Origin: Owenia fusiformis
Taxonomy: Eukaryota; Annelida; Polychaeta; Sabellida; Oweniidae
Assembly (NCBI GenBank): GCA_903813345.2
Contig: CAIIXF020000012.1
Span: 18,607,520-18,671,519, forward strand
Direction: 5' to 3'
DNA: 64,000 nucleotides
Shown: positions 16,663-55,894 of the stretch, in pieces
Layout: every line of letters starts with the position of its first letter
How positions within the stretch are numbered: the stretch's first letter is position 1
Position numbers and translations under genes: made by a program
The notes under the pieces: generated by a model
What the model was told of the DNA's origin: nothing
Database searches by the model: none
Seen by the model: only the letters and a program-made list of their open reading frames with translations

Positions 16663-16833
16663 CTAGTAAAGATGAATCAGCAGTGTTACAGCCATCAGTA
16701 TTACACAAGCCGTGACATCTGTACCACCGTTATTGTTTTGATTAGCCCATTCTACTGGATCAACCAGGGTACTGTCCTCTTCTACAGCCTCCTGCTCAAT
16801 TACTACAGCTGCACTAGACGCTGCTTGCGCATA
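16663..16833 (-). CDS. Terminal exon: acidic linker and GPI-anchor-like hydrophobic tail
   Basis: The acceptor reads atatttacag|TATGCG on the minus strand and is entered in phase 0, matching the phase-0 donor at 18826. The exon encodes 56 residues and TAG. It starts [11 protein letters not shown], has an acidic stretch (EQEAVEED), then NNNGGTD, and ends with a hydrophobic segment ([13 protein letters not shown]) directly before the stop. A small-residue region followed by a terminal hydrophobic tail is the usual GPI-attachment layout, with the omega site probably in NNNGG. RGM proteins also end in a GPI signal, which supports the family call. A single-pass tail anchor is less likely because no cytoplasmic residues follow. 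No canonical AATAAA is visible in the following ~370 bp. Confidence 0.72.
   Translation of the reverse strand, partial: YAQAASSAAVVIEQEAVEEDSTLVDPVEWANQNNNGGTDVTACVILMAVTLLIHLY

Positions 16834-55894: not shown

Follow-up and report, generated by a model that had tools for sequence, protein, structure and literature searches.

A tandemly duplicated gene predicted to place an RGM_C-type domain behind an EGF/PVYK array and a threonine-rich stalk

Repulsive guidance molecules (RGMs) act in nerve guidance and in the control of iron. Besides a signal peptide and a GPI signal they carry RGM_N, which is helical and binds BMP, and RGM_C. The family (RGMa, RGMb/Dragon, RGMc/hemojuvelin and the invertebrate DRAG-1) is small, its architecture is described as fixed and each invertebrate genome is said to contain a single gene; the vertebrate members self-cleave within their RGM_C domain (PMC11488336). 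Convertases shed RGMc at an Arg-rich site that is absent from RGMa and RGMb (PMC2323002), and RGMB no longer binds neogenin efficiently once A186 is mutated to Arg (PMC8063088). RGM_C, a partial vWD-type domain, has the GDPH motif in common with VWD-domain proteins (PF00094). Two further groups resemble the protein described here: the cbEGF rod proteins of the fibrillin, fibulin and Notch type, with which it shares phase 1-1 cbEGF exons and the consensus for Ca-binding and Asp/Asn hydroxylation, and the uromodulin/tectorin-type GPI-anchored EGF or vWD proteins, with which it shares a modular array, a membrane-proximal module and a GPI signal. The latter proteins use D8C and ZP modules, not RGM_C.

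Here we analyse a gene on the minus strand of one 64,000-nt stretch (C12:18607520-18671519, hereafter the window) of a 498 Mb animal genome. From N- to C-terminus it encodes EGF and PVYK modules alternating twice, about ten cbEGF modules, a Thr-rich stalk, a 10-Cys region, an RGM_C-type domain and a GPI-like tail, an arrangement that makes the product in all likelihood a modular cell-surface protein, most probably GPI-anchored, assembled by domain shuffling. It is an RGM_C-domain protein and not a full or fourth RGM, since RGM_N is undetectable and the neogenin-contact residue is replaced. Beside a classical RGM, the genome holds five further RGM_C genes or gene copies, and the window gene belongs to a tandem family, unlike the single invertebrate RGM of the published account (PMC11488336). 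The first-pass annotation knew of no description of such a protein, and a search of the open-access literature likewise found none in which RGM_C is joined to EGF; comparable proteins may already be present in UniProt without having drawn comment.

Exon chain and modules of the gene

Twenty-five minus-strand exons were modelled within the window, with reading frames and candidate AG/GT splice sites that are phase-compatible at every junction. The first-pass annotation had listed 26 phase-consistent exons between 16663 and 55894 (window numbering, used throughout for positions without a chromosome prefix). The 26th, a possible degenerate EGF exon (46045..46135) with an acceptor score of 5.1 and no good donor, was omitted from the model. 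The 3' end of that span proved exact, but the gene is longer than it allowed: 55894 marks the acceptor side of a 42-nt EGF mini-exon, and upstream of the window lie one further EGF exon (C12:18675087-18675209, or 67690-67568 in continued window numbering) and one further PVYK exon (C12:18672885-18673199, or 65680-65366), both on the minus strand. The chain that runs from this upstream EGF (67690) to the TAG stop at 16663-16665, which closes the last exon, comprises 1494 codons and contains no internal stop. All the elements that had been named (EGF, PVYK, ten cbEGF exons, Thr-rich stalk and hydrophobic C-terminus) were recovered on the minus strand where the first reading had placed them. A possible exon at 29390-29269 was discarded, as it disrupts the succession of phases and has no counterpart in the paralogue on C1 described below. 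No convincing N-terminal signal peptide was found. A candidate first exon, MAKLEACFSKCCKIVTISLVVMK, weak as a signal peptide, lies outside the window at C12:18691220-18691292 (minus strand); it has a phase-1 donor and occurs also at 6281-6209 (minus strand), the two copies lying upstream of units 2 and 3 of the tandem cluster.

The N-terminal part of the chain within the window, like all exons that follow, reads on the minus strand. It opens with the 42-nt EGF-half mini-exon (55853..55894; AG/GT, phase 1-1, continuous reading), which bridges the upstream PVYK module, at its C-terminus, and the cbEGF exon that comes next; a similar mini-exon (47391..47432; AG/GT, phase 1-1) follows the second PVYK. 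Between the two lie a degenerate EGF exon without Cys5 and Cys6, whose use in the mRNA is uncertain (55238..55333), an EGF exon of the FXa_inhibition/cEGF type (52222..52329; Pfam PF14670, E=1.5e-10), and the second PVYK module, an unnamed domain of 105 aa encoded by a single exon (50340..50654). PVYK is recurrent, with 8 copies in the C12 cluster and 20 more elsewhere in the genome at E<=0.01, and it had no match in Pfam, NCBIfam or, by phmmer, the PDB. An AlphaFold2 model of the module reached a pLDDT of 45.7, too poor for a fold search.

Two cbEGF exons (45869..45991 and 43080..43205) precede eight more of 123 nt each, which form a tandem array with a 240-nt exon-plus-intron period (38552..40359). 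Exons 1-4 of the array occupy 40359-40237, 40119-39997, 39877-39755 and 39637-39515, and exons 5-8 occupy 39397-39275, 39157-39035, 38917-38795 and 38674-38552. Pfam assigned two cbEGF modules to EGF_CA (PF07645) with E=2.9e-20, and the Ca-binding and hydroxylation consensus is present. Unlike the arrays of the fibrillin, fibulin or Notch type, the one in this gene consists of eight near-identical modules in a recent tandem repeat and is joined to RGM_C. Over 38543-40410 the introns are 98.6% alike and the exons 97.1%; the greater likeness of the introns points to a very recent expansion.

The stalk is encoded by one exon of 33-nt (11-aa) repeats (31192..31680), which near its start also supplies Cys6 of the last cbEGF. 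Its composition (Thr 49/162, Ser 12, Pro only 2) is acidic and Thr-rich; with so few prolines, this region, earlier labelled a mucin stalk, is probably not a classical PTS mucin. The adjoining stalk-h1 intron contains degenerate tandem repeats of about 113 nt (30013-31190), beside the coding minisatellite of the stalk. Four exons, h1 (29606..29897), h2 (28741..28940), h3 (26895..27111) and h4 (26230..26404), then encode a 10-Cys region that stands where RGM_N would be. All four are conserved in five paralogues, the only places in which this region was seen, and keep their splice sites on C1; a profile search matched the region to no family.

Tandem units, a paralogue on C1 and probable transcript structure

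The window gene is part of a cluster of four tandem units on C12 (C12:18464544-18760234), all on one strand and about 70-90 kb apart. Each contains, in the same order, two PVYK exons, a cbEGF array, the h exons, the RGM_C exons and the GPI exon, whereas the number of cbEGF exons differs between units. A fifth copy lies on C1:1926583-1938114 (plus strand), where nine exons, from h1 to the GPI tail, follow one another in order. That the same nine C-terminal exons recur in order on another chromosome with conserved splice sites, and that exons of the same set are present in the three other C12 units, argues that the exon chain did not arise by chance. Because the window unit and the next unit are mostly 95-99% identical, this pair says little about constraint, and the C1 copy is the informative one. 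Indeed, C1 and the window have AG/GT at the same places in all nine exons and share 74% of their amino acids; their indels (+3, +3, +6, +15 and -21 nt) are exclusively multiples of three, and the dN/dS between the C1 and C12 C-terminal halves is 0.47. Purifying selection, as read from these codons, acts on the C-terminal half. Upstream of the C1 paralogue, at C1:1902698-1915178, are two defensin-like genes of two exons each, encoding a signal peptide and then a Cys peptide of the CS-alpha-beta type.

The exon junctions bear on whether the EGF and RGM_C portions share one transcript. The cbEGF exons of this gene end before Cys6, which the next exon supplies just past the junction (..GG|SSC). 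The junction of the last cbEGF with the Thr exon reads ..GG|FYC and thus provides Cys6 at the same phase and position as the EGF-EGF junctions, for which we estimate a chance probability of about 1-3%, that is, a few per cent or less. Since the sixth Cys of the last EGF comes from the Thr exon, a single transcript is inferred on good, if not decisive, grounds. The alternative would be two adjacent genes, an EGF/PVYK protein followed by a separate short RGM_C-type GPI protein that comprises the stalk or 10-Cys region plus RGM_C, kept next to each other only by tandem duplication of the whole 70-90-kb unit. Such duplication would indeed preserve adjacency whatever the transcription. Between the last EGF and the stalk lies an intron of 7 kb, and the C1 paralogue retains h1 to the GPI exon but has neither EGF nor PVYK exons in the 46 kb upstream of it. 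No N-terminus was found for this paralogue, and the h1-to-tail half may stand alone on that chromosome. Two separate genes would, however, leave the last cbEGF without a sixth Cys beside an exon that offers one at the exact position and phase, and the interval from 38.6 to 29.8 kb offered only one weak candidate, at 35789, for a signal-peptide exon with a phase-1 donor. We therefore regard the two-gene arrangement as unlikely and favour the single transcript.

The units are not all equally intact. In unit 2, r4, the last RGM_C exon (C12:18537674-18537889), lacks its acceptor and first codons through an apparent deletion that joins the intron to mid-exon, and this copy may be non-functional. 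In unit 1 (C12:18465067-18465306), an 18-nt deletion removes a polybasic convertase-like run. Given these two losses, shedding or function may vary among the C12 copies. The truncated r4 of unit 2, together with the two degenerate EGF exons and the very recent, nearly identical state of the window unit and its neighbour, could also suggest that the window copy is itself a decaying tandem duplicate, a pseudogene with leftover domains. This is very improbable, as the window copy has an uninterrupted reading frame and all its splice sites, and the C1/C12 comparison yields in-frame indels only and the dN/dS of 0.47 given above.

Identity of the C-terminal domain

The C-terminal domain of the window copy is encoded by four exons. 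The first, r1 (23472..23684), carries the order CFGDPH, TC, G and N and is supported by alignment with the paralogues and RGM; the frame of r2 (22143..22257), which contains LPTAFDGS, was set by phase and the C1 paralogue; r3 (19891..20014) is supported by paralogue comparison and the C1 splice sites; and r4 (18826..19042), with ITGCPEDQI and a polybasic run, by paralogue comparison, the C1 splice sites and the RGM alignment. A last exon (16663..16833) adds an acidic spacer and the hydrophobic, GPI-signal-like C-terminal tail, which ends at the TAG stop with no cytoplasmic residues. The intron that precedes it contains transposon remnants (18706-18263 and 17668-17399, minus strand), recognized by eye from their translation as a LINE-like tail and a mariner-like transposase fragment.

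For the Pfam search, r1-r4 were spliced with r2 in the frame given above. RGM_C (PF06534) was the sole meaningful match, spanning profile positions 8-182 or more: the C1 paralogue scored 30.7 bits (E=2.1e-7), above the cut-off of 27, and the window copy 24.5 bits (E=1.6e-5), just below it. No match to VWD (PF00094) was returned by Pfam for the spliced domain even at E<=10. Comparison by hhalign with an RGM profile built from the C10 copy and RGMB gave P=3.2e-5 and a score of 40.7, and none of 40 column shuffles exceeded a score of 19.8; this genome's VWD domains gave P=0.0087 over 13 columns that cover only the GDPH motif. By P value, RGM is preferred to VWD more than 100-fold. The domain aligns colinearly and end to end with the C10 RGM and RGMB, through FGDPH, TC-x3-G, LPxAF-DGS, GCPxxxI, C-x-F-D-x3-xG and the hydrophobic tail. 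In addition, the phase-0 intron between r1 and r2 falls about 6 residues from a phase-0 intron of the C10 RGM, which is no more than suggestive. Exon-by-exon RGM_C profile searches of the genome missed the window copy, probably because single exons are too short, and phmmer returned no PDB relative of the RGM_C part.

Collectively, these results bear out the earlier assignment of the C-terminal module to a relative of RGM_C, and neither Pfam nor hhalign revealed a vWD-type family that fits the exons at 18.8-23.7 kb better. That the module belongs instead to such a family (for instance AMOP-vWD or mucin-like) and resembles RGM_C through GDPH and C-x-F-D only is barely credible: GDPH is common to VWD, and two C4 loci with VWD exons also weakly match the C-terminal part of RGM_C, but the module has no VWD match at E<=10, shares only the GDPH motif with the VWD profiles of this genome, lacks the GLCGN motif of VWD and presents T-C-x3-G, LPxAFxDGS, GCPxxQI and the C-x-F-D-x3-xG block in RGM order. 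Elsewhere in the genome, a giant intron-poor VWD-array locus with open frames of 8849, 7135 and 1952 codons and many VWD matches occupies C1:55420711-55486822.

RGM features and the putative surface rod

The first reading as a domain-shuffled RGM relative holds insofar as RGM_C stands behind an EGF array and a stalk, but needs correcting for RGM_N, which makes up half of the definition of an RGM and is undetectable here: PF06535 had no match in the region, and hhalign gave P=0.14 over 18 columns, whereas the classical RGM on C10 does carry this domain. Likeness to the RGM family, the C10 RGM included, extends over RGM_C from end to end, with its conserved motifs and the hydrophobic GPI-type tail. 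CFGDPH is present in r1 of all five paralogues, so that the GDPH autoproteolysis motif is preceded by a Cys, as in RGMs, and cleavage is predicted. The C-terminus is hydrophobic, is preceded by small residues and lacks a cytoplasmic tail, which makes it a candidate GPI signal. Units 2, 3 and 4 and the C1 copy contain the convertase-like site KRRRRRKRQ, which is lost in unit 1 and lies after the vWD-type domain, in the same stretch as the convertase-type site of RGMc.

Other features set the protein apart from the RGM family. An EGF/PVYK array, a Thr stalk and the 10-Cys region precede RGM_C, so that, if there is one transcript, other extracellular domains stand in front of it, and the GAWPL motif is replaced by GNQVW. 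The residue aligned to RGMB A186 is Asn in all five copies and Ala in the C10 RGM. For this comparison, A186 was located by counting along the PDB chain of RGMB, whose first residue, the proline that follows the cleavage site, we take to be residue 169. Since the neogenin-contact alanine is replaced, RGM-like signalling should not be assumed; with the BMP-binding RGM_N undetectable as well, the protein is probably neither a BMP co-receptor nor a canonical neogenin ligand. The canonical RGM-neogenin pair is intact, as the genome has both a classical RGM with RGM_N, RGM_C and a GPI-type tail (C10:26472302-26485014, plus strand) and a separate neogenin gene on C7.

The first-pass annotation had described a long ectodomain in front of an RGM head; RGM_C is rather the membrane-proximal base, and the EGF/PVYK end is distal. 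In such an arrangement, the EGF/PVYK and Ca2+-stiffened cbEGF modules would form a rod projecting from the membrane, spaced by the Thr-rich, acidic and Pro-poor stalk, and RGM_C would sit at its base, presumably attached through GPI as the hydrophobic tail suggests. Autoproteolysis at GD/PH could, as in RGMs, leave anchor and ectodomain joined by a disulfide, and a furin-like protease might release it at KRRRRRKR, as in RGMc/hemojuvelin. Because GDPH and KRRRRRKRQ occupy places that correspond to the RGM sites, a surface rod able to be held or released is to be expected. The probable role of the protein is that of a rod for adhesion or recognition with sheddable surface display, for which a set of tandem copies that differ in EGF number would be well suited. 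On balance we lean slightly towards a new metazoan class of surface proteins, in which RGM_C without RGM_N would serve as an autoproteolytic, convertase-sheddable base for EGF/PVYK rods; with similarly modest conviction, we see this class as expanded by tandem duplication, its EGF number varying, in a genome that also has a normal RGM-neogenin pair.

In this family RGM_C occurs in several copies, without RGM_N and apparently joined to an EGF rod. This makes it possible to test which features of RGMs (self-cleavage at GD/PH, display through GPI, shedding, and neogenin or BMP binding) belong to RGM_C alone, and provides a natural RGM_C variant without the neogenin-contact alanine. A further, weak RGM_C match (E=0.1, profile positions 7-83) lies at C7:17538296-17538529 on the minus strand, near PVYK exons at C7:17.41-17.48 Mb, and is possibly a second PVYK/RGM_C-type locus.
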